Source of the DNA: Chromobacterium haemolyticum DSM 19808 | Lineage (GTDB): Bacteria > Pseudomonadota > Gammaproteobacteria > Burkholderiales > Chromobacteriaceae | NCBI RefSeq assembly: GCF_000711885.1 | Contig: NZ_KL543996.1 | Location: 44,061 to 108,060 of the forward strand | Reading direction: 5' to 3' | Length of the DNA: 64,000 nt | Shown here: in pieces, positions 23,621-61,003 of the stretch | Numbering within the stretch: the stretch's first letter is position 1 | How the letters are laid out: each line of letters starts with the position of its first letter | The notes under the pieces: generated by a model | The model's input: the letters and a program-made list of their open reading frames with translations, nothing else | The model's database searches: none | What the model was told of the DNA's origin: nothing | Made by a program: the position numbers and the translations under genes

Positions 23621-23763
23621 TGGCTTGGCGTTACGATCTGCTGCGCATCGGCGATACGGCGTTGAAACCGTCTTCGGAATGCTCATGTACCGTATGTACA
23701 CTCCGCTTCTTCAGCCGTTTTCGCCTTGTCTCGCTCTTGCTCGCGAGAACGTAAACATGTTCT
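23621..23763 (+). repeat. Dispersed inverted-terminal element, copy 1
   Basis: About 143 bp. It shares the core GATACGGCGTTGAA..., TGTACACTCCGCTT and CGCCTTGTCTCGCTC blocks with copies at 31673, 34112 and (degenerate) 38406. The right end CGTAAACATGTTCT is followed by TA; the left end is degenerate (GGCGTTACGATCT). The right terminus supplies the last base of the TAA stop of the gene at 23763-24584 (minus strand). Confidence 0.8.
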
Positions 23764-24584
23764 TAGTGGATGCCCAGAATCTGCTTGGCTTCGGCGGGGG
23801 AGGCGATCTCGCGGCCGACTTCGCCGGCCAGGCGCGCCAGGCGCTCCACCAGTTGGGCGTTGTCGCGGGCCAGTTCGCCGTAGCGGTAATAGACGTTGTC
23901 TTCCAGGCCGGTGCGAACATGGCCGCCCAGCAGCAGGGTGTGCAGATTGATCGCCAGCTGGTGTTTGCCTATGCCCAGGGCGGACCACACGCTGTCCTGC
24001 GGAATGCTTTCGACGAAATGCAGCAGGTTCTTGCAAGTGGCGGCCGCGCCGCCCTGTATGCCCATGGCGAAGCTGAAGCACAGCGGGCCGCTCAGGTAGC
24101 CATCTTCCTGCAGTTTCAGCGCCTCGCCGATGATGCCCTGGTGGTAGACCTCGATCTCCGGCTTGGCGCGGTATTCGCGGATGTCCAAGGCCAGCGCGCG
24201 CGCCAGCTCCGGCGGATTGATGAAGGGCTTGCTGCCGTGGTTGACCGAGCCGCAGTTGAAGGAGGCGATGTCGGGGCGGAAGGGCAGGTGATTCCAGGCT
24301 TCCTTCTTCTCCAGTTGCGGCGGCAGGTTGAGGCCGGAGGTGCTCAGATTGATCAGGATGTCGCAGCGATCGCGGATGCGGCGGACGATCTCGCCGTAGA
24401 CGTCCGCGTCGTAGCTGGGCGTGCCGTCCGGGTTGCGGGCGTGGATGTGGACCACCGCCGCGCCGGCGTTCCAGCATTCGTAGGCGGCCTGGGCGATTTC
24501 CTCAGGCGAGAACGGAACGCCCGGATGTTTTTGCCGGCTGGTGATGCCGCCGTTGACGGCGGCGGTGATGATGAGTTTTTGCAT
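23763..24584 (-). CDS. Beta-keto acid cleavage enzyme (BKACE, DUF849)
   Basis: 273 residues from ATG 24584 (MQKLIITAAVNGG); an in-frame ATG at 24599 is possible and neither has a strong Shine-Dalgarno. Zn-ligand motif VVHIHARNPDG, substrate loop INLSTSG, the PDIASFNCGS strand and GGHVRTGLEDN all match the 3-keto-5-aminohexanoate cleavage enzyme family. BKACEs transfer an acetyl unit: a beta-keto acid plus acetyl-CoA gives acetoacetate plus a new CoA ester. It could therefore make the acyl-CoA used by the thiolase or oxoamine synthase downstream. The specific keto acid is unknown. Confidence 0.85.
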   Translation of the reverse strand: MQKLIITAAVNGGITSRQKHPGVPFSPEEIAQAAYECWNAGAAVVHIHARNPDGTPSYDADVYGEIVRRIRDRCDILINLSTSGLNLPPQLEKKEAWNHLPFRPDIASFNCGSVNHGSKPFINPPELARALALDIREYRAKPEIEVYHQGIIGEALKLQEDGYLSGPLCFSFAMGIQGGAAATCKNLLHFVESIPQDSVWSALGIGKHQLAINLHTLLLGGHVRTGLEDNVYYRYGELARDNAQLVERLARLAGEVGREIASPAEAKQILGIH

Positions 24585-24627
24585 GGTGGGAAAGCTCATG
24601 TGAATAAAGGGTAAAAAGCGACGGCGC

Positions 24628-25557
24628 TCAGATCTGGTCGCCGGCGGGCGCGGTTTGAGGCTGCGCGGCGGCGGTTGGGCGCTTGGACACCAGATAAATG
24701 CCAACGCCGATCAGCACGCCGCCGATCAGTTCATGCAACGACAGCGAATAGCCGAAGGCGACAAAGGAAATCAGGGTGGCGAACAGCGGAGATAGAAACA
24801 GGAAGCCGCTGGTGCGCACCGCGCCGCCCAGGTCCAGCGCCATGAACCACAGCGCCATGGCCCCGGTGGTGGCCGGCAGCGCCAGCCACAAAAAGGCGGC
24901 CAACACCCGCTCGCTGTGCGGCGGGGCGGGGACTTCTCCGCCGGCCCAGGCCAGCAGCGCCAGGCAGGCCGAACCGACCAGCATCTGCCAAAAAGTCAGC
25001 GCCCAGACGTTGATCACGATGCGGCTGCCCTTGATCACCAGCGTGGACGCGGCCCAACAGGCCGCGCCGCACAGCACCAGCGCGTCGCCGGCGCCGAAGC
25101 CGTCCAGCTTGTTCAAGCCGATGCAGACGGCGACGCCGAAGAAAGCGAGGACCAGGCCGACGGCGGCCAGAGGGTGGATTTTTTCCTTTAGCGCCAGCCG
25201 CGACATCAAGGCCACGATCAAGGGGGTGCAGGCCATCAGGATGGCGGCCTTGGCCGGTGTGGTGCTGCGCAGCCCGATATTGAGAAAGCCCATCGAGCCG
25301 GCGGTTTGCAGCAGCCCGATCAGCGCCAGCACGCCCCAGGGGCGCGGGCGGACGAAAGCGCGCGGATAGCGGAAGCGCTGCCACAGCAGTATGGGGACGA
25401 TGCCGGCGGCGGCGGCGGTGAAGCGCGCCACCGCCGCCCATAAGGGCGGCATTTCCGAAAGCACGATCTTGGAGGTGGGGAAGGTGGAGCCAAACAAAAA
25501 GGTGGCGGCCAGAATCAGCAGCCAATAGCGTTTGGCGTCGTAGTTGGGATGGGACAT
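24628..25557 (-). CDS. EamA/DMT-family transporter
   Basis: 309 residues, ten predicted helices arranged as two EamA repeats. The start is ATG 25557, with AGGTGA nearby; an upstream TTG is less likely. LFGSTFPTSKIVLSEMPP near the N-terminus and the SPLFATLISFVAFGYSLSLHE region near the end of the second repeat are typical of metabolite or amino-acid exporters. It is 43 bp upstream of BKACE and heads the minus-strand gene run. A strong inverted repeat lies just before it. It probably exports or imports a small metabolite of this pathway. Confidence 0.8.
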   Translation of the reverse strand: MSHPNYDAKRYWLLILAATFLFGSTFPTSKIVLSEMPPLWAAVARFTAAAAGIVPILLWQRFRYPRAFVRPRPWGVLALIGLLQTAGSMGFLNIGLRSTTPAKAAILMACTPLIVALMSRLALKEKIHPLAAVGLVLAFFGVAVCIGLNKLDGFGAGDALVLCGAACWAASTLVIKGSRIVINVWALTFWQMLVGSACLALLAWAGGEVPAPPHSERVLAAFLWLALPATTGAMALWFMALDLGGAVRTSGFLFLSPLFATLISFVAFGYSLSLHELIGGVLIGVGIYLVSKRPTAAAQPQTAPAGDQI

Positions 25558-25577
25558 GGTCACCTGGCCAGACAGCG

Positions 25578-25606
25578 GTTTCAATAGCTATTTATCATAT
25601 TGAAAC
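25578..25606. promoter_or_regulatory. Candidate operator GTTTCAATA-N11-TATTGAAAC
   Basis: Perfect 9-bp inverted repeats separated by 11 bp, ending 21 bp upstream of the DMT transporter start. The geometry suits a dimeric regulator such as a LysR- or TetR-type protein. It probably controls the 15660-25557 gene run; which protein binds is not known. Confidence 0.5.
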
Positions 25607-25765
25607 GGTTTGGCTCAGGCTTCTTGCAAGCGGACAATTGCTGCGTCAAAACGGACAATCATGCTGCGCTGCGGCAAAGCTGTGTCGGCGCGCGGGGCCG
25701 CGAGGTGGAGGAGTGGCTGCTCAAAGCCTCGCTTTTGCCGGCGCGGCTTTGAACAGCTTATGAGC

Positions 25766-26527
25766 TCAGGAGAAGTACTGGCTGGGGGCCGCGTTCATAA
25801 TGCGGCGGAACATGGAGGAAAACGCGCCGGGGGTTTCGTAGCCCAGGTCGGAGGCAATCAGGGTGACCGGCTCGCCGGCGCCCAGCCGCGGCAGGGCCGC
25901 CATTGCGCATACTTGTTGGCGCCAGTATAGATAGGACACGCCCAACTCCTGTTGGAACAAGCGCGCCAGCGTGCGGCTGGACGCGCCCACCAGTTCCGCC
26001 CATTCGCTCAGGCCGCGGCGGTCGCCTGGATTGGCCAGAATCGCCGAGCATACCCGTTGCAAGCGCGGGTCGCCCAGCGGGGGCAGTGGCAAGGCCGTTT
26101 CGCTGGACCATTCGATTTCGTCGATCAGTAAATCCAGCAAGCGGCCTTCTTTTTGGTTGTCGTGGGGAATGGCGTGCGTGCGCATCAGGCGGATGATGAT
26201 TTCCCGCATCAGCGGCGAAATGGCGATGGCTTTGGAGTGACGCGGCAACTGCGCCAAGTAGCGGGGGGACTGTATGTACAGCGTGCGCAAGGACACCGTG
26301 CCGCGGGCACGCATGCTGTGCTCCACCGCCGGGGGCATCCAGACGCCGCGCTGCGGCGGCACCAGCCACAGGCCGTCGGAGGTAGACAGCTCCATCACGC
26401 CGGAGACGGCGAAAATCAGTTGGCCTTCGCGGTGTTGGTGGCGGCCGACTTGATGACCGCTGGGAAAGTCCTTGGACATGCTCCACGCGGCGAAGTCCGG
26501 CAGGACAGCGTTGGATTCTATGGCCAT
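25766..26527 (-). CDS. AraC-family transcriptional regulator with cupin domain
   Basis: 253 residues. The N-terminal cupin (GHQVGRHQHREGQLIFAVSG, then WMPPAVEHSM) probably binds a small ligand. The C-terminal two-HTH AraC domain contains LSEWAELVGASSRTLARLFQQ and LIASDLGYETPGAFSSMFRR. It is in the same orientation as the DMT-to-carboxylase gene run, with 208 bp between. AraC-cupin proteins often control an adjacent exporter, so it may control that run. Direct proof is absent. Confidence 0.85.
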   Translation of the reverse strand: MAIESNAVLPDFAAWSMSKDFPSGHQVGRHQHREGQLIFAVSGVMELSTSDGLWLVPPQRGVWMPPAVEHSMRARGTVSLRTLYIQSPRYLAQLPRHSKAIAISPLMREIIIRLMRTHAIPHDNQKEGRLLDLLIDEIEWSSETALPLPPLGDPRLQRVCSAILANPGDRRGLSEWAELVGASSRTLARLFQQELGVSYLYWRQQVCAMAALPRLGAGEPVTLIASDLGYETPGAFSSMFRRIMNAAPSQYFS

Positions 26528-26704
26528 GCGCTTGCTTTCTTATTTGAGGGTAGCCCGGTTCCGCGCGGCTTGCGGCCCTGTTGTGCGGGCGTCTTCAGCC
26601 GCGAGTTCAATCTCATGATACTGCAGCGCACAAAATATTCATACAGTATAAATTGTGTCTATTTCGATGCGAATGCCTTGGGGTTGCGGCTCCGCCCCCG
26701 CAAG

Positions 26705-26740
26705 GACAAAAGAAAACACCGCGGCCGGAGGGCCGCGGTG
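26705..26740 (-). terminator. Rho-independent terminator of the GH3 gene
   Basis: CACCGCGGCC pairs with GGCCGCGGTG (26717-26740). On the minus strand it is followed by TTTTCTTTTG. It lies 35 bp beyond the stop of the gene at 26775-28808. Confidence 0.85.
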
Positions 26741-26774
26741 CGTTAGGAGGAGGGTTAAGAAGAGCGATGCTTCG

Positions 26775-28808
26775 TCAGAACCTCAGCCCAAAACCGCGCG
26801 CGTAGCGCAACGCGCCCGGCTGGCCGTTTTCATCCAGCGCATGGATGGCCACCGGCAGCTTGCCGCCCGGCGGGTTCGCGCCCAGCATGACGTCCACCAG
26901 CGCCGGCATGGAGGGCCCGCGCAGGCCGTTCTCATAACCGTAGTAGGAGTAGGTGGCCAGCGTGGCGTCTGCCAGATCGTCGTAATTGATCACGTCGTAA
27001 GGCGCGCGCAAGGTCACGTGGATCAGCTTCTTGCCTTGCCGTTTGGCGTATTCCATCGCATTGCGCATTTGTTGCGCCTCGCTGAGCGGCGGCGCGGACA
27101 GGCTGCGGGCGAAACGGGTTTGCAAGGACGGCAGGTCTTCCGCCACGTTGAAGACCAGGGAGCCGTTGCCGGACATCGGCGCCGACGCCGCTTCAGTCGG
27201 CAGGCTGCGTTTCAGTCGAGGCGCAAGGGCCGGCGCGTTGGGGTCGCCGTTGCGCTCCACCGGGCTGACGCCGGTGGCCAGGGTGCCGATGACGACCACG
27301 TCGGCCTGATCGATCGCCTGTTTCTGGGCCTCCCACGGCGTGGCGCTCAGCTTGGCGCCGCTGACTTGGCGATAGCCTTTCTCATCAAAGCGGCGACGCA
27401 TCGCCTCGGCCTGCTCGCCCCAGGGCGTCAGGATGAAGATGCGCTGGCTGGGCGAGCGCAACGGCAGCGCCGCGCCCTGATTGCGCAGCAGGGTGATGGA
27501 TTGCCGGGTGATCTTATCTTCCACCGCGCGGTGTTCCGCACCGCCTATGGTGCTCAACTCCGGCAACGGCTTGGCTTCGCCGGCAGGGGTGACCTCGTTG
27601 CGCAACTTCATCGCCACGATGCGCCGCACCGAGCGGTCCAGTTCGGCGCGGTCTATCCGTCCGTCCGCCACCGCGGCGGCTACTTGGTCGATTAATTGAC
27701 GCAGCCGGCCGGCTTGCGCGGCGGTGCGGAATTCGGTGGGCATCAGCGCGATGTCGACATCGGCCTGGAACACCTTGATTACCGCGTCGGCCTGCTCGAA
27801 GAAATCGCTGATGCCCTTCATGTCCAGCGCGTCAGTGACGGTGACGCCCTGGTAGCCCATCTCGCCGCGCAGCAGATCGTGCTGGATTTTGCGCGACATG
27901 GTCGCCGGCGCGATCATGCGTTCGCCGTTGCGGGCGGTGATTTGGCTGTTGTCCAGCGCCGGGTACTGGATGTGGGCGGTCATGATCATCTCCGGGGGCT
28001 GGCCGGAGGCGATGGCTTGGCGGTAGGGCGCCAGGTCGATGGCGTAGGCGTCGGCGCGCGATTTGTTGACCACGGGCAGACCGTAATGGGAGTCGGTGGC
28101 GGTGTCGCCGTGGCCGGGGAAGTGTTTGAAGGAGCCGATCACGCCTTGCTCGCGCATGCCTTGCGTCGTGGCCTGGCCCAGCAGGCTGATGGTGGCGGGG
28201 TCGTCGCCGTAGGCGCGGACATTGATTACCGGATTGAGCGGATTGCTGTTGACGTCCACGTCCGGGGCAAAGTTGACGTTGAAGCCGACGGCGCGGATCT
28301 CGGCGGCCAGCACGCGGCCGGAGTCGCGGGCCAGGCCACTATCCCGAGTTGCTTCATAGGCGGCGCCCAGCGCCATATTGCCAGGAAAGCTGGTGGCCAG
28401 CGGACGCGGCAAGCGGAAGACATTGCCGCCCTCCTGGTCAGAACCAATCAACAGGCCGACCGGGCTGTTTTGCGGCCGCGCCTTGCGGATCTGCTCGGAC
28501 AGGCGGCGGGTTTGCTGCAGATCGGTCAGATTGTTGGCGAACAGAATCACGCCGCCGATGGCGTTGTCGCGCAAGGAGCGGCTGGCGGCTTCCGGCAGTT
28601 CGGTCATGCCGGCGGTGCAGGCGGGCTGATCGTCCGGGCACCAGTAGCGGAAGGCCATCATGATTTTCTGGCCGATTTTCTCGCGGGGGCTCATTTGTTC
28701 GACGATGCGCGCGGCTTGCTGTTCGACGCTGGGCTGGTCCAGGCAGCCGCTCAACAGCGCCGGCAATAGCATCAGCGCCGGTAAGCGCAGGGAGTATGGT
28801 TTAAACAT
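26775..28808 (-). CDS. Glycoside hydrolase family 3 lipoprotein (beta-N-acetylglucosaminidase type)
   Basis: 677 residues. A lipoprotein signal ends in LLSGC (Cys22). The GH3 N-domain carries the NagZ-type dyad motif KHFPGHGDTATDSHYG and the nucleophile Asp in VTDALDMKG. A second domain (about residues 400-677) matches the GH3 C-terminal domain, so it resembles two-domain Gram-positive NagZ (about 640 aa) more than the 340-residue cytoplasmic NagZ of most proteobacteria. It probably trims N-acetylglucosamine from muropeptides or other glycans at the envelope. It is a single-gene unit with its own terminator. Confidence 0.85.
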   Translation of the reverse strand: MFKPYSLRLPALMLLPALLSGCLDQPSVEQQAARIVEQMSPREKIGQKIMMAFRYWCPDDQPACTAGMTELPEAASRSLRDNAIGGVILFANNLTDLQQTRRLSEQIRKARPQNSPVGLLIGSDQEGGNVFRLPRPLATSFPGNMALGAAYEATRDSGLARDSGRVLAAEIRAVGFNVNFAPDVDVNSNPLNPVINVRAYGDDPATISLLGQATTQGMREQGVIGSFKHFPGHGDTATDSHYGLPVVNKSRADAYAIDLAPYRQAIASGQPPEMIMTAHIQYPALDNSQITARNGERMIAPATMSRKIQHDLLRGEMGYQGVTVTDALDMKGISDFFEQADAVIKVFQADVDIALMPTEFRTAAQAGRLRQLIDQVAAAVADGRIDRAELDRSVRRIVAMKLRNEVTPAGEAKPLPELSTIGGAEHRAVEDKITRQSITLLRNQGAALPLRSPSQRIFILTPWGEQAEAMRRRFDEKGYRQVSGAKLSATPWEAQKQAIDQADVVVIGTLATGVSPVERNGDPNAPALAPRLKRSLPTEAASAPMSGNGSLVFNVAEDLPSLQTRFARSLSAPPLSEAQQMRNAMEYAKRQGKKLIHVTLRAPYDVINYDDLADATLATYSYYGYENGLRGPSMPALVDVMLGANPPGGKLPVAIHALDENGQPGALRYARGFGLRF

Positions 28809-29119: not shown

Positions 29120-29149
29120 TTGACCCTTGTTCGGGTGCGGGAGGATAAT
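29120..29149 (+). promoter_or_regulatory. Sigma-70 promoter of dusA
   Basis: TTGACC (29120-29125) and GATAAT (29144-29149) are separated by 18 bp, a near-consensus arrangement. It predicts a start near 29156 and a leader of about 75 nt before dusA. Confidence 0.6.
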
Positions 29150-29230: not shown

Positions 29231-30268
29231 ATGGATACGATGCAGGACAGCGGAGTGCAGCATTCTAGGGTTGGGAACAGCGACGGCTTGCCGCCGCGCC
29301 GTCTATCGGTGGCGCCGATGCTGGATTGGACCGACCGTCACTACCGCTATTTCGCGCGTCAGATCACTCGGCATGCCTGGCTGTACACCGAGATGGTGAC
29401 CACCGGAGCGTTGTTGCATGGCGACGTTGAACGCCACCTGCGTTTCGACGAGGCGGAACATCCGCTGGCCTTGCAACTGGGCGGCAGCGAGCCGGCGGAG
29501 CTGGCGCGTTGCGCCAAGCTGGCGGCGGAGTGGGGCTACGACGAGGTCAATCTGAACGTGGGCTGCCCGTCGGAACGGGTGCAGAAAGGCGCTTTCGGCG
29601 CCTGCCTGATGGCCGAGCCGCAGCTGGTGGCCGACTGCGTCAAAGCGATGCGCGACGCGGTGTCCATTGATGTGACGGTCAAGCACCGCATCGGCATCGA
29701 CCGCATCGAGCATTACGATTACCTGAGCGATTTCGTCGGCCAGGTGGCGGACGCCGGCTGCCGCACTTTCATCGTGCATGCGCGAAACGCCATTCTCAAA
29801 GGCCTGAGCCCCAAGGAAAACCGCGAAATCCCGCCCTTGAAATACGATTACGTCTATCGGCTGAAGCAGGAGCGTCCGGATCTGGAAATCCTGATCAACG
29901 GAGGCGTCAAAAGCCAGGCCGACATTGACGAGCATCTGCGCCACGTCGACGGCGTGATGGTGGGGCGCGAGGCCTACCACAACCCCTGGCTGATGGCGGA
30001 TTGGGACCAGCGCTACTACGGCGTCGCCGCCGCGCCGGAGCGAGAACAGGTGGTGGCCGCGATGATGCCCTATGTGGCGGCGCGTCTGGCCGAGGGCCAC
30101 AAGACACGCAATATCGCCCGCCACATCCTGGGCCTGTTTCAGGGCATTCCCGGCGCGCGCAACTGGCGGCGCATGCTGTCCGACGCCAAATTGCTGGACG
30201 GCGCCGACGAGCGCCTGCTGCAACAGGCGCTGGAGGCGACGCTGGGCGCAGCCCGCCGCGCCGAATAA
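29231..30268 (+). CDS. dusA: tRNA-dihydrouridine synthase A
   Basis: About 345 residues. Possible starts are GTG 29225, ATG 29231 and ATG 29240, none with a strong ribosome-binding site. FMN-barrel motifs are clear: LSVAPMLDWTDRHYRYFAR, NLNVGCPSERVQKGAFG (active-site Cys), VKHRIGIDR, FIVHARNAILKGLSPKENR, and INGGVKS with GVMVGREAYHNPW. The KGLSPKENR segment marks the DusA subgroup, which reduces U20/U20a of tRNA. A repeat copy lies downstream. Confidence 0.93.
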   Translation: MDTMQDSGVQHSRVGNSDGLPPRRLSVAPMLDWTDRHYRYFARQITRHAWLYTEMVTTGALLHGDVERHLRFDEAEHPLALQLGGSEPAELARCAKLAAEWGYDEVNLNVGCPSERVQKGAFGACLMAEPQLVADCVKAMRDAVSIDVTVKHRIGIDRIEHYDYLSDFVGQVADAGCRTFIVHARNAILKGLSPKENREIPPLKYDYVYRLKQERPDLEILINGGVKSQADIDEHLRHVDGVMVGREAYHNPWLMADWDQRYYGVAAAPEREQVVAAMMPYVAARLAEGHKTRNIARHILGLFQGIPGARNWRRMLSDAKLLDGADERLLQQALEATLGAARRAE

Positions 30269-30374: not shown

Positions 30375-30506
30375 AGAGCTTGTTCAAAGTCTCGCTGGTT
30401 AGCGCGAGACAAGACCGAAACCGTTGAAGAAGCGTTAATGCGCCTACCGCGCATGGGCATCAGAACGCGACGCTTGTCGATGCTAAGCGGACTTTGAACA
30501 GGTTCT
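30375..30506 (-). repeat. Dispersed inverted-terminal element, copy 2 (inverted)
   Basis: 132 bp, reverse orientation. The termini are AGAGCTTGTTCAAAGTCT and GGACTTTGAACAGGTTCT, an inverted repeat with few mismatches. The inner CTCGCTGGTTAGCGCGAGAC hairpin and the CAAGACCGAAACCGTTGAAG block match the other copies in reverse. A TA precedes the left end. It lies 106 bp after the dusA stop. Confidence 0.75.
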
Positions 30507-31673: not shown

Positions 31674-31817
31674 GCTTGTTTTGAACAAAGTCTGCTGCGC
31701 GTCGGCGATACGGCGTTGAAAACGGCTTCGAAATGCTCATGTACCACTTGTACATTCCGCTTTCTCAGCTGTTTTCGCCTTGTCTCGCGCTAGCTCGCGA
31801 GACTTTGAATAAGTTCT
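31673..31817 (+). repeat. Dispersed inverted-terminal element, copy 3
   Basis: 145 bp, flanked by TA on both sides (31671-31672 and 31818-31819), as expected for a TA target duplication. The arms carry AAAGTCT and AGACTTT. An inner hairpin GTCTCGCG/CGCGAGAC lies near the right end. Its first base completes the TAA stop of the binding-protein gene. Confidence 0.85.
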
Positions 31818-32520: not shown

Positions 32521-33732
32521 GTGCAGGTGACCAAGATCTCGCTGTCCGCGCTTGGGGGCTTGGGCGGGCAGCCCGCTTTGACGGAGCTGCCGCCGCTGTC
32601 GCTGTACATCCATTTCCCGTGGTGCGTGCGCAAGTGCCCGTATTGCGACTTCAATTCGCACGAGCCCAAGAGCGGTTTCGACGAGATGGCCTATGTCGAC
32701 GCCTTGCTGCGCGATCTAGAATTCAGCCTGCCGGAAGTCTGGGGCCGTCCCTTGACCAGCATCTTCATGGGCGGCGGCACGCCCAGCCTGTTCTCGCCGC
32801 AGGCGATGGACGCGCTGCTGGCCGGCGTGCGCGCGCGCATGCGTCTGCAGCCGGATGCGGAAATCACCATGGAAGCCAATCCCGGCACGTTCGAGGCCGA
32901 GCGTTTCCGCGGCTACCGCGAGGCCGGCATCAACCGCTTGTCCATCGGCATCCAGAGCTTCAAGCCTGCGCATTTGCAGGCGCTGGGCCGCATCCATGAC
33001 GGCGAGGAGGCGCGTCGCGCCATCGACATCGCGCTCAGCCACTTCGACAACGTCAATCTGGACCTGATGTACGCGTTGCCGGGGCAGACCCTGGACGAAG
33101 CGCTGGCCGATCTGGACACCGCACTGTCCTATGGGATTACTCATCTGTCCGCCTATCACCTGACGATAGAGCCCAACACCCTGTTTGCCGCAGAGACGCC
33201 GCGCAATCTGCCGGACGACGAAGTGTCCGCCGATATGCAGGAGGCGATCGAAGCGCGGCTCGCCGCCGCCGGTTTCGAGCACTACGAAACCTCGGCCTTC
33301 GCGCGGCCGGGCCGCCGCGCGCGGCACAATCTCAACTACTGGCAGTTCGGCGACTATGTCGGCATCGGCGCCGGCGCCCACGGCAAGATCAGCAGCCACG
33401 CGGGCATTGTCCGTCAGATGCGTCACAAGCAGCCGGCCGCCTATCTGAAAGCGGTGGCCGAGGGCAAGCCCTTGCAAAGCAGCCGCAAGGTGACGCGCGA
33501 CGAACTGCCGTTCGAATTCATGATGAACCTGCTGAGGCTGACCGAAGGCTTCGAATTGCGCCTGTTCCAAGAGCGCACCGGTCTGCCGCTGTCCGGCATA
33601 CAATCCGCGTTGACGCAAGCCGAGGCGCAAGGCCTGATTGAGCGCGACGCCGTGATGTTGCGGCCCACGCTCAAGGGCCAACGCTTCCTCAATGACTTAT
33701 TAACCCTGTTCCTGAAAGAAGGAGATGAATAA
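32521..33732 (+). CDS. hemW: Radical SAM heme chaperone HemW
   Basis: 403 residues from GTG 32521, with AAGGAG 8 nt upstream. The radical-SAM cluster motif is [14 protein letters not shown] (CxxxCxxC). [23 protein letters not shown] and [10 protein letters not shown] follow, then the HemW-type C-domain with [22 protein letters not shown]. HemW lacks the true coproporphyrinogen-oxidase chemistry of HemN and is thought to hand heme to respiratory enzymes. Its stop overlaps the ridA start (TAATG). Confidence 0.92.
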
Positions 33733-34112
33733 TGGCTAAGGAAATCATTCACACCGACAAGGCCCCGGCCGCCATCGGCGCTTACTCGCAAGCCGTGAAA
33801 GCCGGCAACACCGTTTACTTGTCCGGCCAGATCCCGCTGGACCCGGCCACCATGAACGTGGTGGAAGGCGGTTTCGCCGCTGAAACCCACCAGGTGTTCA
33901 AGAACATGAAGGCGGTATGCGAAGCCGCCGGCGGCAGCCTGGACCAGATCGTCAAACTCAACGCTTACCTGACCGACCTGTCCAATTTCGCCACCTTCAA
34001 CGAAATCATGGGCCAGTATTTCAGCCAACCCTTCCCGGCGCGTGCCGCCGTGGGCGTGGCCAGCCTGCCCAAGGGCGTGTTGGTGGAGGCGGAAGCGGTT
34101 CTGGTGCTCTAA
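33732..34112 (+). CDS. ridA: RidA family enamine/imine deaminase
   Basis: 126 residues. Signature segments include [27 protein letters not shown], the active Arg in [23 protein letters not shown] and the start IHTDKAPAA. RidA hydrolyses reactive enamines such as 2-aminoacrylate, protecting PLP enzymes. GGAG lies about 9 nt before the ATG, inside the hemW 3' end, so the two are coupled. The TAA stop is completed by the first base of the following repeat. Confidence 0.93.
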
Positions 34113-34253
34113 GAGCCTGTTCACGATCTGCTGCGCGTTGGCGATACGGCGTTGAGAACAGCTTCAGAAGGCCCGTGTACCGTGTGTACACTCCGCTTTC
34201 TCAGCCGTTTTCGCCTTGTCTCGCTCTTGCTCGCGAGATCGTAAACAGGCTCT
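34112..34253 (+). repeat. Dispersed inverted-terminal element, copy 4 (best termini)
   Basis: 142 bp. AGAGCCTGTTCACGATCT at the left and AGATCGTAAACAGGCTCT at the right form an 18-bp terminal inverted repeat with one mismatch. The inner CTCGCTCTTGCTCGCGAG hairpin is present. TA precedes the left end; the right flank is GA. Confidence 0.88.
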
Positions 34254-34285
34254 GAGCAGCCCAACTGCTCGAAATGTCAGACCAC

Positions 34286-36347: not shown

Positions 36348-38396
36348 ATGAGCTCCCTAATCGACCCCGCCAATCAGCCGCCGGCCGTGGCGCCGGCACT
36401 GGCCAAGAAGCTGGAAAAGCTGGGCATACGCCGCCGTTTCGACCTGGTCCTGCATCTGCCGCTGCGCTATGAGGACGAGACCCATCTGTACGCCATCGCC
36501 GACGCGCCGTACGGCCAGGCGGTGCTGGTGGAGGGCGAGGTGATCGCCCATGAAATCCAGTTCCGGCCGCGCCGTCAGCTGGTGGCGCGCATTGAGGACG
36601 CCAGCGGCAGCCTGGTGCTGCGCTTCATTCATTTCTATCCCAATCAGGTCAAGCAATTCACCACCGGCAACCGGGTGCGTGCCTTGGGCGAGATCCGCCG
36701 CGGCTTCGCCGGCGACGAGATGGTGCACCCCAAAATCCGCGAAGTGGGCAATGGCGCGCCGCTGGCGGACAGCCTGACTCCGATCTATCCCACGGTCAAC
36801 GGCCTCACCCAGCCGGCGCTGCGCAAGCTGATCCATGCCGAGCTGGACAGCCAGCCTTTGGGCGAGACGTTGCCGGAGGAACTGGCCGCGCCGTTGCGGC
36901 TGACGCCGTTCGCCGAGGCGATCCGCCTGCTGCACTTGCCAACGCCGGATTACAGCGCCAGCCAATTGGCCGACCCGAGACTGCCGGCTTGGCAGCGGCT
37001 CAAGTTCGACGAATTACTGGCGCAGCAGCTGTCGATGCGTTTGGCCTATCGCGCTCGACGACTGGGCCGCGCGCCGCCGCTGCGTGGCGACGGCACGTTG
37101 AGCCGAGCGTTGGTCGAGCGCCTGCCGTTCTCGCTGACTGGCGCGCAGCAACGGGCCTTGGCTGAAGTCCGCGCCGACCTGACTCAGCCGCATCCGATGC
37201 ACCGTCTGTTGCAAGGCGACGTGGGCAGCGGCAAGACCATCGTCGCGGCCCTAGCGGCCTTGACCGCGATTGAATCCGGCTACCAAGTGGCGCTGATGGC
37301 GCCGACCGAGATTCTGGCCGAACAGCACTTCCTCAAACTTTCCGCCTGGCTGGAGCCCTTGGGCGTTCCCGTGCGCTGGCTGGCCGGCAGCCTGCGCAAG
37401 AAGCAAAAGCAAGAAGCGATGGCGGCGATCGCCAGCGGCGAAACGCGGCTGGCGGTGGGCACCCATGCCTTGTTCCAGGACGAGGTGGCCTTCCATCGCC
37501 TGGGCCTGGTCATTGTCGACGAGCAACACCGTTTCGGCGTCGGCCAGCGGCTGGCGTTGAAGGAGAAGGGCGGCGAGCCGCACCAGCTGATGATGTCGGC
37601 GACGCCGATTCCGCGCACGCTGGCGATGAGTTTCTACGCCGACCTCGACGTGTCGGTGATAGACGAACTGCCGCCGGGGCGCACGCCCATCGTGACCAAG
37701 CTGATCAACAGCGCTCGCCGCGAGGAGATCGTCGCCCACGTGGCCAAGACCTGCGCCGACGGGCAGCAGGCCTACTGGGTGTGCCCGCTGATCGAGGAAT
37801 CGGAAACCCTACAATTGCAGACCGCGGTGGACACCCATCAGCAACTCACCGCCGACCTGCCGCAGCTTGGCATCGGGCTGGTGCATGGCCGGATGAAGGC
37901 GGACGAAAAAGCGGCGGTGATGGCGGCTTTTGCCCGAAACGAACTGCAAGTGTTGGTGGCCACCACGGTGATCGAGGTGGGCGTGGACGTGCCCAACGCC
38001 AGCTTGATGGTGATAGAGCACGCAGAGCGCATGGGCCTGGCTCAGTTGCACCAGTTGCGCGGCCGGGTGGGGCGCGGCAGCGCGCGCAGCGTCTGCGTGC
38101 TGATGTTCGACAATCCGTTATCCGACTTGGCCAAGGCGCGCTTGAAAGTGATTTACGAGAATGTTGATGGTTTCGAGATCGCGCGGCAAGACTTGCTGAT
38201 TCGCGGGCCCGGCGAACTACTGGGCGCGCGCCAGAGCGGCCTGCCCATGCTGCGCTTCGCCAATCTGGAAGAGGACCTGGAACTGTTGGAGGCGGCGCGG
38301 GAACTGGCGCCCTTGCTGCTGGAGCGCCACCCGCAGGCGGTGGACGCTCATCTGGACCGTTGGCTGGCCGGACGCGAGCAGTTTCTCAAAGCTTGA
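36348..38396 (+). CDS. recG: ATP-dependent DNA helicase RecG
   Basis: 682 residues, close to E. coli RecG (693). The N-terminal wedge domain includes IRRRFDLVLHLPLRYEDET and an OB fold (about 55-145). Helicase motifs: LQGDVGSGKTIVA (Walker A), VDEQHRFGVGQR (DEQH type), MSATPIPRTLAM, and the C-lobe VLVATTVIEVGVDVPNAS and HQLRGRVGRGS. It remodels stalled replication forks and Holliday junctions. Confidence 0.95.
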   Translation: MSSLIDPANQPPAVAPALAKKLEKLGIRRRFDLVLHLPLRYEDETHLYAIADAPYGQAVLVEGEVIAHEIQFRPRRQLVARIEDASGSLVLRFIHFYPNQVKQFTTGNRVRALGEIRRGFAGDEMVHPKIREVGNGAPLADSLTPIYPTVNGLTQPALRKLIHAELDSQPLGETLPEELAAPLRLTPFAEAIRLLHLPTPDYSASQLADPRLPAWQRLKFDELLAQQLSMRLAYRARRLGRAPPLRGDGTLSRALVERLPFSLTGAQQRALAEVRADLTQPHPMHRLLQGDVGSGKTIVAALAALTAIESGYQVALMAPTEILAEQHFLKLSAWLEPLGVPVRWLAGSLRKKQKQEAMAAIASGETRLAVGTHALFQDEVAFHRLGLVIVDEQHRFGVGQRLALKEKGGEPHQLMMSATPIPRTLAMSFYADLDVSVIDELPPGRTPIVTKLINSARREEIVAHVAKTCADGQQAYWVCPLIEESETLQLQTAVDTHQQLTADLPQLGIGLVHGRMKADEKAAVMAAFARNELQVLVATTVIEVGVDVPNASLMVIEHAERMGLAQLHQLRGRVGRGSARSVCVLMFDNPLSDLAKARLKVIYENVDGFEIARQDLLIRGPGELLGARQSGLPMLRFANLEEDLELLEAARELAPLLLERHPQAVDAHLDRWLAGREQFLKA

Positions 38397-38405
38397 AGCC
38401 GGCTA

Positions 38406-38550
38406 AATGCTTGCTCCGCTTCGGCGGGATGGATGGATAAAGGGCGTGGAGAGCCGCTTCGAAATGCTCATGAGCCACGTTCACATTCCGTTTTCTCAGC
38501 GGTTCTCGCCTTGCTTGGCTCTGGCTCTCCAGCCTTGGAGCAGGCTTTCG
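38406..38550 (+). repeat. Dispersed inverted-terminal element, copy 5 (divergent)
   Basis: About 145 bp. CTTCGAAATGCTCATGAGCCAC, CATTCCGTTTTCTCAG and CTCGCCTTG blocks align without gaps to copies 1, 3 and 4. Its arms differ (GCTTGCTCC at left, GGAGCAGGC at right) yet still pair. TA precedes it. It lies 10 bp after the recG stop. Confidence 0.65.
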
Positions 38551-55141: not shown

Positions 55142-55173
55142 GGCAAACCGGAACCTACACAAAGCACACAAGC

Positions 55174-57207
55174 ATGGATATGAAGAGCTTATACCTGCTG
55201 ATTGCACTCGCCCCGCTGGCGGGTTCCATCATTGCAGGCCTATTTGGATGGGCCATCGGCCGGCGCGCTTCGCACGTCGTGACGATAGCCGGCGTGGCGC
55301 TGTCCGCCGCGCTGTCGCTCAAGGTGCTTCACGCCTTCCTGACCGGGCAGGCTGAAGTGTTCAACGGTCCGGTTTACACCTGGCTGACAGTGGGAGGCTA
55401 CGAGTTCTCGGTGGGCTTCCTGGTGGATTCGCTGACCGCGATGATGCTGGTGGTGGTCACCAGCGTGTCGCTGATGGTGCACATTTACACCATCGGCTAC
55501 ATGCAGGAAGATCCGGGCTATCAGCGCTTCTTCAGCTATATCTCGCTGTTTACCTTCTCGATGCTGATGCTGGTGATGAGCAACAACTTCATCCAGCTGT
55601 TCTTCGGTTGGGAAGCGGTGGGCCTGGTGTCCTACCTGCTGATCGGCTTCTGGTTCAAGCGTCCGACCGCGATCTTCGCCAACCTGAAGGCTTTCCTGGT
55701 CAACCGCGTCGGCGACTTCGGCTTCCTGCTGGGCATCGGCCTGGTGCTGGCCTATTTCGGCGGCTCGCTGAACTACAGCGATGTGTTCGCCGCTGCTCCG
55801 GCGCTGGCCAGCAAGACCATCAGCCTGATTCCGGGCACCGAGTGGTCGCTGCTGAGCGTGACCTGCATCCTGCTGTTCATCGGCGCGATGGGCAAATCGG
55901 CGCAGTTCCCGCTGCACGTGTGGCTGCCGGATTCGATGGAAGGCCCGACCCCGATCTCGGCGCTGATCCACGCGGCCACCATGGTGACCGCCGGCATCTT
56001 CATGGTGTCGCGGATGAGCCCGCTGTTCGAGCTGTCCGACACCGCGCTGAACGTGATCATGGTCGCCGGCTCCATCACCGCGCTGTTCATGGGCTTCCTC
56101 GGCATCGTCCAGAACGACATCAAGCGCGTGGTGGCTTACTCCACGCTGTCGCAACTGGGTTACATGACCGTGGCGCTGGGCGCCTCGGCCTACTCGGTGG
56201 CGATGTTCCATGTGATGACCCACGCCTTCTTCAAGGCGCTGCTGTTCCTGGCTGCGGGTTCGGTGATCATCGGCATGCATCACGATCAGGACATGCGCAA
56301 TATGGGCGGCCTGCGCAAGTACATGCCCATCACCTGGCTGACTTCGCTCTTGGGTTCGCTGGCCTTGATCGGCACGCCGTTCTTCTCCGGCTTCTACTCC
56401 AAGGACTCCATCATCGAGGCGGTGCACGCGTCCAATCTGTCCGCGGCCGGTTTCGCCTACTTCGCGGTGATCGCCGGTGTGTTCGTGACCGCCTTCTACT
56501 CCTTCCGCATGTACTTCCTGGTCTTCCATGGCAAGGAGCGCTGGATGGAGAAGAAGGACGATCATCACGACCATGGCCATGACGATCACGATCATCACCA
56601 TGGCCTGGGCCCGAACGATAAGCCGCACGAGTCGCCGTGGGTGGTGACCCTGCCGCTGGTGCTGCTGGCGATTCCGTCGGTGCTGGTGGGTTACTTCGCG
56701 ATCGAGCCGCTGCTGTACGGCGACTTCTTCAAGGGCGTGATCACCGTCAACCATGAACTGCATCCGGCGATGGAAGAGATCGCCCGCGAGTTCCATGGCG
56801 CCGCCGCCATGGGCGTGCATTCGCTGAGCACGCTGCCGCTGTGGCTGGCGCTGGCCGGCGTGGCCACCGCCTGGTTCTTCTATATGAAGGCGCCGCAGAT
56901 TCCGGCCGCCATCAAGCAGAAGTTCAGCCTGGTGAACAAGGTCCTGGAAAACAAGTACTACCTGGACGAGATCTACTTCGCCGTGTTCGCCAAGGGCTCT
57001 CGGGCTCTGGGCACCTTCTTCTGGAAGGTGGGCGACATGTTGCTGATCGATGGTCTGGTAGTGAACGGCACCGCCAAGCTGGTGGCGACGTTCTCCGGCT
57101 TCATCCGCCGCGCGCAAACCGGCTTCATCTACAGCTACGCCACCGCGATGATCATCGGGGTGCTGGCGCTGATGACGATGTGGTTCTGGCCGCTGATCTG
57201 GCGTTGA
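55174..57207 (+). CDS. nuoL: NADH-quinone oxidoreductase subunit L
   Basis: 677 residues, an antiporter-like subunit with about sixteen helices and a lateral helix. Key segments: FFGWEAVGLVSYLLIGFW, GKSAQFPLHVWLPDSMEGPTPISALIHAATMV and KRVVAYSTLSQLGYM. A His/Asp-rich insertion (HHDHGHDDHDHHHG, near residues 467-480) sits in a loop. It pumps protons at the distal end of the membrane arm. Confidence 0.96.
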   Translation: MDMKSLYLLIALAPLAGSIIAGLFGWAIGRRASHVVTIAGVALSAALSLKVLHAFLTGQAEVFNGPVYTWLTVGGYEFSVGFLVDSLTAMMLVVVTSVSLMVHIYTIGYMQEDPGYQRFFSYISLFTFSMLMLVMSNNFIQLFFGWEAVGLVSYLLIGFWFKRPTAIFANLKAFLVNRVGDFGFLLGIGLVLAYFGGSLNYSDVFAAAPALASKTISLIPGTEWSLLSVTCILLFIGAMGKSAQFPLHVWLPDSMEGPTPISALIHAATMVTAGIFMVSRMSPLFELSDTALNVIMVAGSITALFMGFLGIVQNDIKRVVAYSTLSQLGYMTVALGASAYSVAMFHVMTHAFFKALLFLAAGSVIIGMHHDQDMRNMGGLRKYMPITWLTSLLGSLALIGTPFFSGFYSKDSIIEAVHASNLSAAGFAYFAVIAGVFVTAFYSFRMYFLVFHGKERWMEKKDDHHDHGHDDHDHHHGLGPNDKPHESPWVVTLPLVLLAIPSVLVGYFAIEPLLYGDFFKGVITVNHELHPAMEEIAREFHGAAAMGVHSLSTLPLWLALAGVATAWFFYMKAPQIPAAIKQKFSLVNKVLENKYYLDEIYFAVFAKGSRALGTFFWKVGDMLLIDGLVVNGTAKLVATFSGFIRRAQTGFIYSYATAMIIGVLALMTMWFWPLIWR

Positions 57208-57247
57208 GCCCGGACTCCGGGATTGGAATAACAACTTGGGTTTGACT

Positions 57248-58744
57248 ATGTTCACAAATCTATTGACTCTGGTGATCTGGGCCCCGATAGCGGCCGGGTT
57301 GCTGGTGCTGGCAACCGGGGGCGATCAGCGGGCCACGCTGGCGCGCTGGCTGGCCGCGGCGGGGGCCCTGGCGGGCTTCCTGCTGTCGCTGCCGCTGTTC
57401 ACTGAATTCAACAATCTCAGCGGCGGCATGCAGTTCGTCGAGATGAAGCCGTGGATTGAGTCCCTCGGCATCAACTACCACTTGGGCGTGGACGGCATCT
57501 CGATGCTGTTCGTGGTGCTCAACAGCTTCACCACTCTGCTGGTGGTGGTGGCCGGCTGGCAGGTGATCCAGAAGCGCGTGTCGCAGTACATGGCCGCCTT
57601 CCTGATCATGTCCGGCTTGATCAACGGCGCTTTCGCCGCGTTGGACGCTATCCTGTTCTATGTCTTCTTTGAAGGCATGCTGATTCCGATGTATCTGATC
57701 ATCGGCGTCTGGGGCGGCCCGCGTCGCGTGTACGCGTCGATCAAGTTCTTCCTTTACACCCTGCTGGGCTCGCTGCTGATGCTGGTGGCCTTGATCTACC
57801 TGTACTTCCAGGCCGGCAAGTCCTTCGACATCCAGGCTTTCCACGACATCGCCAAGATCCCGCTGACGGTGCAGATCCTGCTCTTCGTCGCCTTCTTCCT
57901 GTCCTTCGCGGTGAAGGTGCCGATGTGGCCGGTGCACACCTGGTTGCCGGACGCCCACGTGGAAGCGCCTACCGGCGGCTCCATGGTGCTGGCCGCGATC
58001 ACGCTGAAGATCGGCGCCTACGGCTTCCTGCGGTTCGTGCTGCCCATCCTCCCCGACGCCGCGCGCGAGCTGTCCGGCGTGATGGTGGCGCTGTCGCTGG
58101 TGGCGGTGGTTTACATCGGTCTGGTGGCGCTGGTGCAGTCCGACATGAAGAAGCTGGTGGCTTATTCGTCTATTTCGCACATGGGCTTCGTCACCCTGGG
58201 TCTGTTCCTGTTCACCGGTTCCGAACTGAACCAGTGGGCGGTTGAAGGCGCGCTGGTGCAGATGGTGTCCCACGGCTTCGTGTCCGCCGCGATGTTCTTC
58301 TGCATCGGCGTGATGTACGACCGCGTGCACAGCCGCAATATCGCCGACTACGGCGGCGTGGCCAACAAGATGCCGATCTTCGCGGCCTTCATGATGCTGT
58401 TCGCCATGGCCAACTCCGGTCTGCCGGCCACCTCCGGCTTCGTCGGCGAGTTCATGGTGATCATGGGCGCGGTGCAGGTGAACTTCTGGTACGCAGCCTT
58501 GGCCGCCACCACGCTGATCTTCGGCGCGGCCTATACCTTGTGGATGTACAAGCGCGTGATCTTCGGCGATGTGGGCAACAGCCATGTGGCGGAGCTGTCC
58601 GACGTCAACAAGCGCGAATTCCTGGTGCTGGCCATCCTGGCCATCGCGGTGCTGGGCATGGGCCTGTATCCGCAAGCCTTCGTCGAGAAAATGCACCTGT
58701 CGGTCAATGACCTGATCCTGCATGTCTCGCAGAGCAAGCTGTAA
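57248..58744 (+). CDS. nuoM: NADH-quinone oxidoreductase subunit M
   Basis: 498 residues from ATG 57248 (MFTNLLTLVIWAPI); an in-frame TTG at 57236 is less likely. Fourteen helices. Glu/Lys pumping residues lie in FYVFFEGMLIPMYLIIGVWGG and KVPMWPVHTWLPDAHVEAPT. The start region has no strong Shine-Dalgarno. Confidence 0.96.
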   Translation: MFTNLLTLVIWAPIAAGLLVLATGGDQRATLARWLAAAGALAGFLLSLPLFTEFNNLSGGMQFVEMKPWIESLGINYHLGVDGISMLFVVLNSFTTLLVVVAGWQVIQKRVSQYMAAFLIMSGLINGAFAALDAILFYVFFEGMLIPMYLIIGVWGGPRRVYASIKFFLYTLLGSLLMLVALIYLYFQAGKSFDIQAFHDIAKIPLTVQILLFVAFFLSFAVKVPMWPVHTWLPDAHVEAPTGGSMVLAAITLKIGAYGFLRFVLPILPDAARELSGVMVALSLVAVVYIGLVALVQSDMKKLVAYSSISHMGFVTLGLFLFTGSELNQWAVEGALVQMVSHGFVSAAMFFCIGVMYDRVHSRNIADYGGVANKMPIFAAFMMLFAMANSGLPATSGFVGEFMVIMGAVQVNFWYAALAATTLIFGAAYTLWMYKRVIFGDVGNSHVAELSDVNKREFLVLAILAIAVLGMGLYPQAFVEKMHLSVNDLILHVSQSKL

Positions 58745-58764
58745 GCGCGGAAGGAATGGAAACA

Positions 58765-60219
58765 ATGAATTGGGCTGATCTCAACCTGATACCGGCAATC
58801 CCCGAGATGTTCCTCGCCGGCGCGATCCTGTTCGTGCTGATGGCGGACCTGTTCGTTTCGGACGAAAAGCGCGGCATCACCCTGGGCCTGACCCTGCTGA
58901 CCCTCTTGGGCGCGGCGGTGGCGCAGGTGATGACTTTCTCTTCGCAGCCGGTCGTGACTTTCTCCGGCATGTTCGTCGCGGATCCGATGGGCGGCGTGGT
59001 CAAGCTGGCCATGTACGCTGTGACCGCCATCGTGCTGATCTACAGCCGGCAGTACACTGCTGATCGTCAGCTGTTCAAGGGCGAGTATTTTTCGCTGGCG
59101 CTGTTCGCTTTGCTGGGCATGAACCTGATGGTGTCGGCTTCGCATTTCCTGACCCTGTATATGGGCCTGGAACTGCTCTCGCTGGCGCTGTACTCGCTGA
59201 TCGCTCTGCAGCGCGAGTCCGTGAAGGCCACCGAAGCGGCGATGAAGTACTTCGTGCTGGGCGCGCTGGCCTCCGGTCTGCTGCTCTACGGCATTTCCAT
59301 GGTCTACGGCGCCACTGGTTCGCTGGAACTGGCGACGGTAGCCAAGTCCATCGCCGCGCATAAGGCCAACGACGTGCTGCTGGTCTTCGGTCTGGTGTTC
59401 ATCGTGGCCGGCCTGTCCTTCAAGCTGGGCGCTGTGCCGTTCCACATGTGGGTGCCGGACGTTTACCACGGCGCGCCGACTTCGGTGACGCTGATGGTGG
59501 GCGCGGCCCCCAAGCTGGCGGCCTTCGTCTTCACGCTGCGCATCCTGGCTCAGGGCCTGGACGCGCTGGTGGCGGACTGGCAACTGATGCTGGTGATCGT
59601 GTCCGCGCTGTCGATGGCGATCGGCAACGTAACCGCTATCGTGCAGACCAACATCAAACGGATGCTGGCTTACTCGACGATCTCGCACATGGGCTTTCTG
59701 CTCTTGGGCGTCCTTGCGGGCACCAAGGTGGGCTACTCGGCGGCGCTGTTCTACGCGCTGAGCTATGTGCTGATGTCGCTGGTCAGCTTCGGAATGCTGC
59801 TGGCCCTCTCGCGCGCCGGTTTCGAGTGCGAGAAGGTTGAGGATCTGAAGGGCCTGAACAGCCGCAACAGCTGGTATGCGCTGCTGATGCTGCTGACCAT
59901 GTTCTCCATGGCCGGCATTCCGCCGCTGGTGGGCTTCTACGCCAAGTTCGCGGTGATCAAGGCTATCGTGGATATCGGCATGATCAAGCTGGCCATCTTC
60001 GCGGTGCTGATGTCGGTGATCGGCGCGTTCTACTACCTGCGCGTGGTCAAGACCATGTACTTCGACGATGCCGAAGACCGCAGCGATATCGTGGTGCGCG
60101 GCGATATGAAGCTGGTGCTGTCGCTGAACGCGCTGGCCTTGCTCGTCATCGGCCTGCTGCCGGAGCGCGCGCTGGAGTTGTGCCTGCAAGTCGTGCGTCA
60201 ATCGCTTACCGTGATTTAA
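58765..60219 (+). CDS. nuoN: NADH-quinone oxidoreductase subunit N
   Basis: 484 residues from ATG 58765, chosen because GGAAGGA is 9 nt upstream; the ATG at 58756 touches that site. Antiporter-like fold with LYMGLELLSLALYSLIAL, KLGAVPFHMWVPDVYHGAPT and KRMLAYSTISHMGFLLLG. It is the last core complex I subunit here. Confidence 0.96.
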   Translation: MNWADLNLIPAIPEMFLAGAILFVLMADLFVSDEKRGITLGLTLLTLLGAAVAQVMTFSSQPVVTFSGMFVADPMGGVVKLAMYAVTAIVLIYSRQYTADRQLFKGEYFSLALFALLGMNLMVSASHFLTLYMGLELLSLALYSLIALQRESVKATEAAMKYFVLGALASGLLLYGISMVYGATGSLELATVAKSIAAHKANDVLLVFGLVFIVAGLSFKLGAVPFHMWVPDVYHGAPTSVTLMVGAAPKLAAFVFTLRILAQGLDALVADWQLMLVIVSALSMAIGNVTAIVQTNIKRMLAYSTISHMGFLLLGVLAGTKVGYSAALFYALSYVLMSLVSFGMLLALSRAGFECEKVEDLKGLNSRNSWYALLMLLTMFSMAGIPPLVGFYAKFAVIKAIVDIGMIKLAIFAVLMSVIGAFYYLRVVKTMYFDDAEDRSDIVVRGDMKLVLSLNALALLVIGLLPERALELCLQVVRQSLTVI

Positions 60220-60231
60220 GGCTGCCATACC

Positions 60232-60525
60232 ATGCAATCCAGCGTCATCGCTTTGCTGATCATCGCCTTGGCGGCGGCCAACCTGCCGTTCTTGACCCAG
60301 AAAGTGGGCGGCGTGTGGAAAGTGGCCAATAAGCATTTTGGCTGGCGCTTTCTGGAACTGATGGCGCTGTATCTGCTGGTGGGCGGCTTCGCCTACCTGC
60401 TGGAAAGCCGGTTGATGCCGGTGCAGCCGCAGAATTGGCAGTTCTACGTGACGACCTTGTCGTTGTTCCTGGTGTTCGCGTTTCCGGGTTACGTCTATCG
60501 TTACTTCTGGCGGCGACGCGGTTAA
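60232..60525 (+). CDS. DUF2818 family membrane protein
   Basis: 97 residues with three predicted helices (about 5-20, 40-60, 70-90). LAAANLPFLTQKVGGVWKVANKHFGWRFLELMALY-type sequence and FAFPGYVYRYFWRR are characteristic of DUF2818, which follows nuoN in many betaproteobacteria. Its 12-bp spacing and shared terminator make it part of the nuo operon. A complex I assembly or accessory role is likely but unproven. Confidence 0.88.
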   Translation: MQSSVIALLIIALAAANLPFLTQKVGGVWKVANKHFGWRFLELMALYLLVGGFAYLLESRLMPVQPQNWQFYVTTLSLFLVFAFPGYVYRYFWRRRG

Positions 60526-60549
60526 CAGCGGGCAGGGCGAGCAGTATCG

Positions 60550-60586
60550 GCGCGGATGGGGGAAACCCCGTCCGCGCTGTTTTTTT
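60550..60586 (+). terminator. Rho-independent terminator of the nuo operon
   Basis: GCGCGGATGGGG pairs with CCCCGTCCGCGC (one G-T pair) around GAAA, followed by TGTTTTTTT. Confidence 0.92.
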
Positions 60587-60642
60587 GGGGGGAAGCGGGC
60601 GCGGAGCCCCTCTGGCCGCGCAATAAGAAGAGGGGAGCGAAG

Positions 60643-60921
60643 GTGATTGCTCGGGACTTCACCCCGCTGGACCGCGTGGCTGAGGTGGAGCCGCTGTATC
60701 GCGAATTTGGTGGAGAAGGCGCGGCAAGAGCCGGACTGCATCCGCTATGAGCTGTTCATCGATCAGAAAGACTCAGGCCATTTCGTCTTCATCTAAACCT
60801 GGCCGGACAGGGCGGCCTTGGACCGGCATTGCGGTACGGAGTGGAGCCGCAGATCGACAGCCGGCAGCGGCAGGCGGCCATCTTCTCGTTGGCGGACGTC
60901 TTTGCAGACACTAGCGTCTGA
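60643..60921 (+). pseudogene. Decayed antibiotic-biosynthesis-monooxygenase-like (ABM) gene
   Basis: A GTG at 60643 behind AGGGGAG opens MIARDFTPLDRVAEVEPLYRE, then the frame breaks near 60710. Continuing in the next frame gives VEKARQEPDCIRYELFIDQK and SGHFVFI, then a stop (TAA where GAA would give the usual ETW) followed by TWPDRAALDRHC. A further frame change leads to IDSRQRQAAIFSLADVF and ADTSV before TGA. In order these pieces match a small ABM-domain protein of about 95 residues. At least two frameshifts and one nonsense codon show it is inactive. Confidence 0.75.
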
Positions 60922-60923
60922 TT

Positions 60924-60949
60924 GAAAAAGGCGCCGCTTTGGGCGCCTT
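60924..60949 (-). terminator. Terminator for the acyltransferase transcript
   Basis: AAGGCGCC/GGCGCCTT stem with a 6-nt loop. On the minus strand it is followed by TTTTTCAAT-type sequence (five T in total). Confidence 0.8.
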
Positions 60950-60953
60950 GCTT

Positions 60954-61003
60954 AGAACATGTTTACGGTATCGCCGACGCGCAGCAGATCGTAAACAGGT
61001 TCT
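60954..61003 (-). repeat. Dispersed inverted-terminal element, copy 6 (internally deleted)
   Basis: 50 bp in reverse orientation. Minus strand: AGAACCTGTTTACGATCT then GCTGCGCGTCGGCGATAC, joined directly to CGTAAACATGTTCT. It therefore keeps the left third and the right terminus only. It begins directly after the TAA stop of the acyltransferase at 61004. Confidence 0.75.

Follow-up and report, generated by a model that had tools for sequence, protein, structure and literature searches.

Why should short repeats lie exactly where genes stop? The question is raised by a 64-kb stretch (the window; contig C8:44061-108060) of the Chromobacterium haemolyticum DSM 19808 genome, which is assembled as 5.03 Mb in 63 contigs. 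An earlier note had described six related, MITE-like elements in this window, several of them on TAA stop codons. All six were recovered at about those places, both by blastn with the 31673 copy as query (E 1.4e-5 to 1.3e-37 for the other five) and by a profile search, while an Rfam search of the window returned nothing but a tRNA. The copies are as follows.

23618..23762, plus strand: MITE copy with decayed left end (profile and ORF calls; empty allele in C. haemolyticum H4137, L165)
30376..30505, minus strand: MITE copy of 130 bp, intergenic (paired ends and profile)
31683..31816, plus strand: MITE copy with partly deleted left end (empty allele in C. aquaticum, L166; boundary set by hand)
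34113..34252, plus strand: MITE copy of 140 bp (paired ends and profile; outgroup comparison)
38398..38546, plus strand: degenerate MITE copy (nhmmer match)
60955..61002, minus strand: MITE remnant of 48 bp, mostly the two ends (paired ends and profile; alleles of relatives)

In order to size the family, the window was joined to forty 20-kb stretches whose coordinates were fixed without regard to content, giving a sample of 864 kb or 17% of the genome. It holds 85 elements, 79 found with a profile built from 47 seed copies and 6 by a paired-ends scan, more than chance would give. Extrapolation gives a genome-wide copy number of about 500; a DNA search gave at least 42 matches in the same genome, with 40 of 470 first-look candidates scored. 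Among nineteen Chromobacterium genomes, five (the source genome G000, G001, G004, G013 and G018) carry 362 to 507 loose first-look candidates and the remaining fourteen 7 to 64. With 14 candidates scored per genome, the element was matched in 26 of 61 genomes and 9 of 34 genera; it had no match among the plasmids and phages searched. In one genome of the same order and another family (G057) there were 318 loose candidates, and all 14 that were scored matched, hinting at a second high-copy lineage. The elements are short, carry no transposase, end in terminal inverted repeats and occur in many copies, all of which is expected of a MITE.

Target duplication and empty sites

Out of 58 end-paired elements in the 864-kb sample, 33 measure 140 or 143 bp. 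Their ends are 17-bp inverted repeats of the GAACCTGTTTACGATCT type, and two end types can be distinguished, GAACCTGTTTACGATCT and GAACCTGTTCAAAGTCT, represented in the end-paired elements by TTTACGATCT and TTCAAAGTCT; some elements carry one of each. The first base of the element proper is G and the last is C. A TNA triplet flanks it on the left in 44, on the right in 46 and on both sides in 35 of the 58, leaving 23 without TNA on at least one side. The two triplets share the same N in 28 of these 35 elements and differ in 7, when 11.2 identical pairs were expected; the value of 28 was never reached in 100,000 shuffles (maximum 23). A stringent subset, in which at least 16 of the 17 positions fit at both ends, comprises 26 elements; in 21 of them TNA is present at both flanks, and in 17 of these the two triplets are identical. 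The preferred target has C before and G after the TNA, and its centre is mostly A or T.

Empty alleles were sought by comparing L138, L142 and L160 (20 kb each) with the orthologous stretches of G001, G004, G013 and G018, and the window with L165-L168 and L275-L278. The closest named relative in one scan, from which the nearest records are possibly omitted, was C. haemolyticum H4137 (L165; a 356-amino acid protein is 100% identical), followed by C. aquaticum (L166) and C. alkanivorans (L167). At nine sites an empty allele with a single TNA was found, and at six of them both copies in the filled allele equal that triplet.

L160:6389, TAA
L160:1473, TAA
L142:15264, TAA
L251:4508 (G004), TCA; empty in three relatives
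L138:6548, TTA; orthologue L245:5668 used for the left copy
Window 60955, TAA; one extra base

At the other three (L160:18723, window 23618 and L138:10619) one filled copy has decayed. The remaining compared sites were not clean, with further indels in some relatives, and L251:15742 and L252:3191 have a single triplet, but a different one. Since most paired flanks agree in N and the empty sites hold a single TNA, the target is (C)TNA(G), duplicated as a 3-bp TNA on insertion. The empty-site comparison that the earlier note had proposed thus defined the duplication, as a 3-bp TNA and not the TA it had expected, and both a target duplication and empty sites, as a MITE should have, were found.

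Six of the nine empty sites coincide with a stop codon. At five of these six sites genes were called in the relatives, and each of the nine empty alleles tested there has its single TNA as the stop of the gene; at the sixth, at 61004, TAA ends the gene in three empty relatives (G018, G013 and G001). The elements are insertions, because the empty alleles keep gene and stop intact, and the view that they are ancestral gene-end structures, which the note had named as a possible refutation, is excluded at these sites.

Head-to-tail pairs of elements sharing or adjoining one TNA were observed at L167:11080-11362, L134:10807-11089 and L152:15090-15374, and suggest that a new copy had inserted into the duplicated TNA of an older one.

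Stop codons and the distribution of copies

Judged by the alleles of relatives, native stops carry three of the six window copies (23621, 34112 and 60954 of the earlier note). The right TNA of the 23618 copy, TTA at 23763-23765, serves as the TAA stop of gene 23763-24599 on the minus strand, and H4137, which is empty here, has one TTA called as the stop of that gene. The left TAA of the 34113 copy (34110-34112) is the stop of gene 33732-34112, and its right flank is TGA (34253-34255); none of the high-copy-clade relatives compared is empty at this site, and outgroup Chromobacterium species without the element stop the gene at the same TAA. The copy at 60955 is the 48-bp remnant, with TTA on its left (60952-60954) and, after one extra T, a right TTA (61004-61006) which serves as the TAA stop of gene 61004-61870 on the minus strand; G004 carries a longer, full-type element on this TAA. 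The other three copies are off stops. The 31673 copy, claimed as a stop-codon case, was inserted at a TTA about 8 bp past the stop TAA 31671-31673, the empty allele of C. aquaticum reading TAA GCTTGTCT TTA. The 38398 copy lies about 10 bp past the TGA of gene 36348-38396 and is missing in four relatives (L165, L166, L167 and L168). The 30376 copy lies 107 bp past the gene ending at 30268, and L165, L166 and L167 have an element there also.

For the whole sample, genes were called with our own codon-model caller (dynamic programming), trained on the sample, and the resulting 767 genes are not those of an annotation. In strict classes, 29 of the 85 elements are exactly on TAA or TGA and 5 on TAG, 8 are within 2 bp but ambiguous, 4 overlap a coding region and 39 are elsewhere between genes. 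The expectation came from all free TNA sites, with weights taken from the target preference of 26 insertions outside stops. Stops account for 29 of the 68 stop and intergenic insertions against 12.6% expected (p=7e-10), a test which leaves out the 17 TAG, ambiguous and overlapping copies; tabulated in this way, the enrichment on stop codons which the earlier note had proposed is borne out. A looser stop class (within 2 bp) took in 36/85 elements (p=8e-14; relative to the 60-bp neighbourhood, p=0.003); it gave way to the strict 29/85, because empty sites put its members 31673 and 38398 off stops.

In a second, BLAST-picked set 23 of 44 copies are on stops; 6 of the 44 are shared with the sample, and of those outside it 19 of 38 are on stops. 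Overall, about a third to half of the examined copies sit on stop codons. At distance 0 the stops are 22 TAA, 7 TGA and 1 TAG, compared to 218, 439 and 73 among all genes, an excess of TAA over TGA that would be expected of an A/T-centred target. Neighbouring genes are convergent somewhat more often than in the sample at large (12 of 28 copies with a neighbour in view versus 174/718 overall, p=0.02).

The properties of the target can account for this niche. The element enters at TNA, preferably one preceded by C, followed by G and centred on A or T, and duplicates the triplet. TNA is TAA or TGA on one strand or the other (TTA and TCA being the complements), so that duplication within a stop keeps the same stop and leaves the protein unchanged, and a TAG within TTAG is restored when TTA is the target, since the element starts with G. 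The near-neutrality and the reliable niche suggested earlier thus hold more strongly than stated, and, as follows from the sequence, are explained without any recognition of stop codons. Copies are rare in coding regions, less rare in distant intergenic ones, commoner just past genes and densest on stops (0.3, 4.2, 15.8 and 29.9 per 1000 weighted sites, the third value being for the 60 bp past a stop). We infer that this gradient was made by selection against harmful insertions and not by insertion bias; target chemistry and purifying selection suffice for the stop-codon association. It is, in our judgement, very probable that we are dealing with a high-copy, TNA-duplicating and stop-restoring MITE family moved in trans by a transposase of the IS1031 type (IS5 family), with selection producing the gradient.

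Insertion could instead be steered actively to stops or gene 3' ends, for example by terminating ribosomes or transcription termination. The density at stops, about seven times that of distant intergenic sites, would agree with such steering, as would its recurrence elsewhere: among the best copies of 21 genomes outside the five richest, 13 of 21 are on stops, and 8 of 14 in other genera (classified with codon weights from Chromobacterium, and leaving out 9 other loci from the five richest genomes). Steering is nevertheless unlikely, as the excess over the 60 bp downstream is marginal (29/44 versus 50.5% expected, p=0.05, or p=0.49 with the 8 ambiguous copies counted as downstream) and stops are at most slightly favoured over equally good sites there; orientation relative to the gene is 15:15. 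The counts for two insertion sequences speak against it as well. None of ten copies of one in G005 with apparent TNA flanks is on a stop, and of nine contig-end copies of a second insertion sequence of G000, described below, two exactly adjoin a TAA stop on the one visible side. The G005 result, from few copies, agrees better with selection than with chemistry as the main cause of the MITE pattern, and does not support the idea that every TNA-type insertion sequence sits on stops. For a G039 insertion sequence, whose flanks look different, 0/5 copies are on stops; five copies of a G031 insertion sequence had no definable boundaries.

Partner insertion sequences, copy turnover and hairpins

The MITE reading asks for an autonomous partner with the same ends, and the genome has such elements. 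A complete 850-bp insertion sequence with two overlapping frames is located at G000:C3:189664-190513, its ends being GAACCTGTTCAAAGTCT and, inverted, GAGCCTGTTCAAAGTCT. A second insertion sequence, starting GAACCTGTTTACGATCT, is present as nine copies running into contig ends. A transposase with the same termini, as sought in the earlier note, has thus been located. G018 has a related insertion sequence of 861 bp with one end of each type. The note's statement that no transposase is nearby holds for the window as regards DUF4096 transposases, none of which matched there, but there are 24 DUF4096 matches in the genome, and an insertion sequence with matching ends is found at the end of the window's own contig. 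The encoded proteins match models of IS5-family DDE transposases (DUF4096 and DDE_Tnp_1), with PF01609 and PF13340 over cut-off and NF033580 over cut-off for one frame (150.9 bits) and below it for two partial frames. From its ends and target the partner is assigned to the IS1031 subgroup, and the shared ends and shared target indicate that the insertion sequences found here probably moved the MITEs.

The nine contig-end copies (L109-L117) are identical over their first 100 bases, which reflects recent activity, and they are a cause of the assembly breaks. The partner insertion sequence matches 147 plasmid records, the best one listed being 77.9% identical over the full length. In G001, G004 and G013, despite hundreds of first-look element candidates, no DUF4096 match was over cut-off, a point against the partner proposed here, and their MITEs may have been left without a mobiliser or rely on a different enzyme. 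G004 does have the insertion L251:4508, empty in three relatives; its partner was either lost or is a different enzyme.

Copies also appear to exchange sequence. One copy on contig C4 and one on C8 show no difference over 140 bp. At the 34112 stop, the elements of four Chromobacterium species (34113-34252; L165:13511, L166:13381, L167:13654) are 80-86% alike and belong to different subfamilies, the adjoining 300 bp of the gene are 95-98% alike, and all four share the asymmetric left TAA and right TGA. This suggests a single old insertion whose body would have been replaced from dispersed copies by conversion; repeated insertion is possible instead. Over 22 orthologous filled pairs the mean identity is 89% for elements versus 95% for each flank, and at sites 23618, 31672 and L138:6548 the elements are as alike as the flanks.

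Folded at full length, a copy forms a single hairpin (z -7.2 for one strand and -6.7 for the other), which could mean that the elements are functional gene-end structures, such as 3' hairpins or terminators, kept or spread for the help they give to host genes. Over 47 copies, pairing at the inner pairs reaches 78.0%, as compared to 75.9% when shuffled and at most 53.2% when slid, and two-sided cells number 54 versus 30.5 in shuffles. Such a function is nonetheless quite improbable as the explanation, given that the empty alleles have gene and stop intact and that both orientations are equally common. The two-sided cells are concentrated in three adjacent pairs and follow subfamilies; the pairs with two-sided changes (15 versus 12.3, 53/500 shuffles) and the pair types (172/500 shuffles) do not stand out, and RNAalifold gave a weak consensus on the 47 copies. 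For the hairpin itself, an RNA function, a DNA hairpin and conversion are all possible.

Relation to known elements and meaning

Correia elements have TA as their target, and the earlier note had likewise proposed TA. That the MITE should target TA and duplicate these 2 bp is scarcely credible here: TA does stand beside many copies, because most TNA triplets have A or T at their centre, but TCA/TCA and TGA/TGA flanks occur and the three empty relatives of L251:4508 hold TCA. A TA-duplicating MITE of the IS630, Correia or RUP type was rejected on the same 3-bp duplication. This leaves a real and large repeat family, a new IS1031-type family of MITEs, whose stop-codon niche follows from its target.

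As excerpted in PMC12016507, an insertion sequence of the IS1031 subgroup (IS5 family; for example ISLrh) has 857 bp and 17-bp ends GAACCTGTCTAGTATCT, prefers TNA and produces a 3-bp repeat, and a TNA target with 3-bp duplication defines the group. The nearly identical 17-bp ends, the TNA target with 3-bp duplication and, for the 850-bp insertion sequence, the two overlapping frames are all found again here; the Chromobacterium element differs from the group as excerpted in measuring 140-143 bp, coding for no transposase, being far more numerous and nesting on stops. Correia elements of Neisseria and RUP of the pneumococcus are, in the excerpts of PMC2229807, short non-coding repeats with inverted ends and high copy number that are moved in trans, RUP having TA as target and IS630-Spn1 as its inferred mobiliser. 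The present element resembles them in those general traits, probably including movement in trans, and differs from what is excerpted there in using TNA and another insertion sequence family. For QMITE2 of Coxiella burnetii one copy is described at the 3' end of a gene, where the element is adjoined by a stop and extends the protein (PMC5896051, in excerpt); the position and adjoining stop are similar, whereas the excerpt has a single, protein-extending case and describes no stop-restoring duplication. Among the literature matches listed (titles and beginnings of abstracts, most subscription journals being outside the scope) there was no report of stop-codon nesting of TNA elements, and the search found no paper on Chromobacterium MITEs.

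A further, rather speculative reading is that TNA-duplicating elements form a class of stop-codon parasites, for which the stop triplet as target, the initial G restoring TAG and the full-length hairpin would be an evolved niche, the hairpin being adapted to transcription with host genes. If so, very many genes would gain a mobile, conversion-prone hairpin right after their stop. The MITE family as we describe it already offers a simple reason why some mobile elements attain hundreds of copies even in a bacterial genome densely packed with genes, as the duplicated target is a stop and gene ends are safe harbours, and it predicts stop-codon nesting in other long-resident TNA-duplicating elements. 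In practical terms, the contigs of this genome's assembly break at the partner insertion sequence. For the organisms, the 3' ends of many genes of one Chromobacterium clade bear a mobile hairpin, and their transcript ends may be affected.
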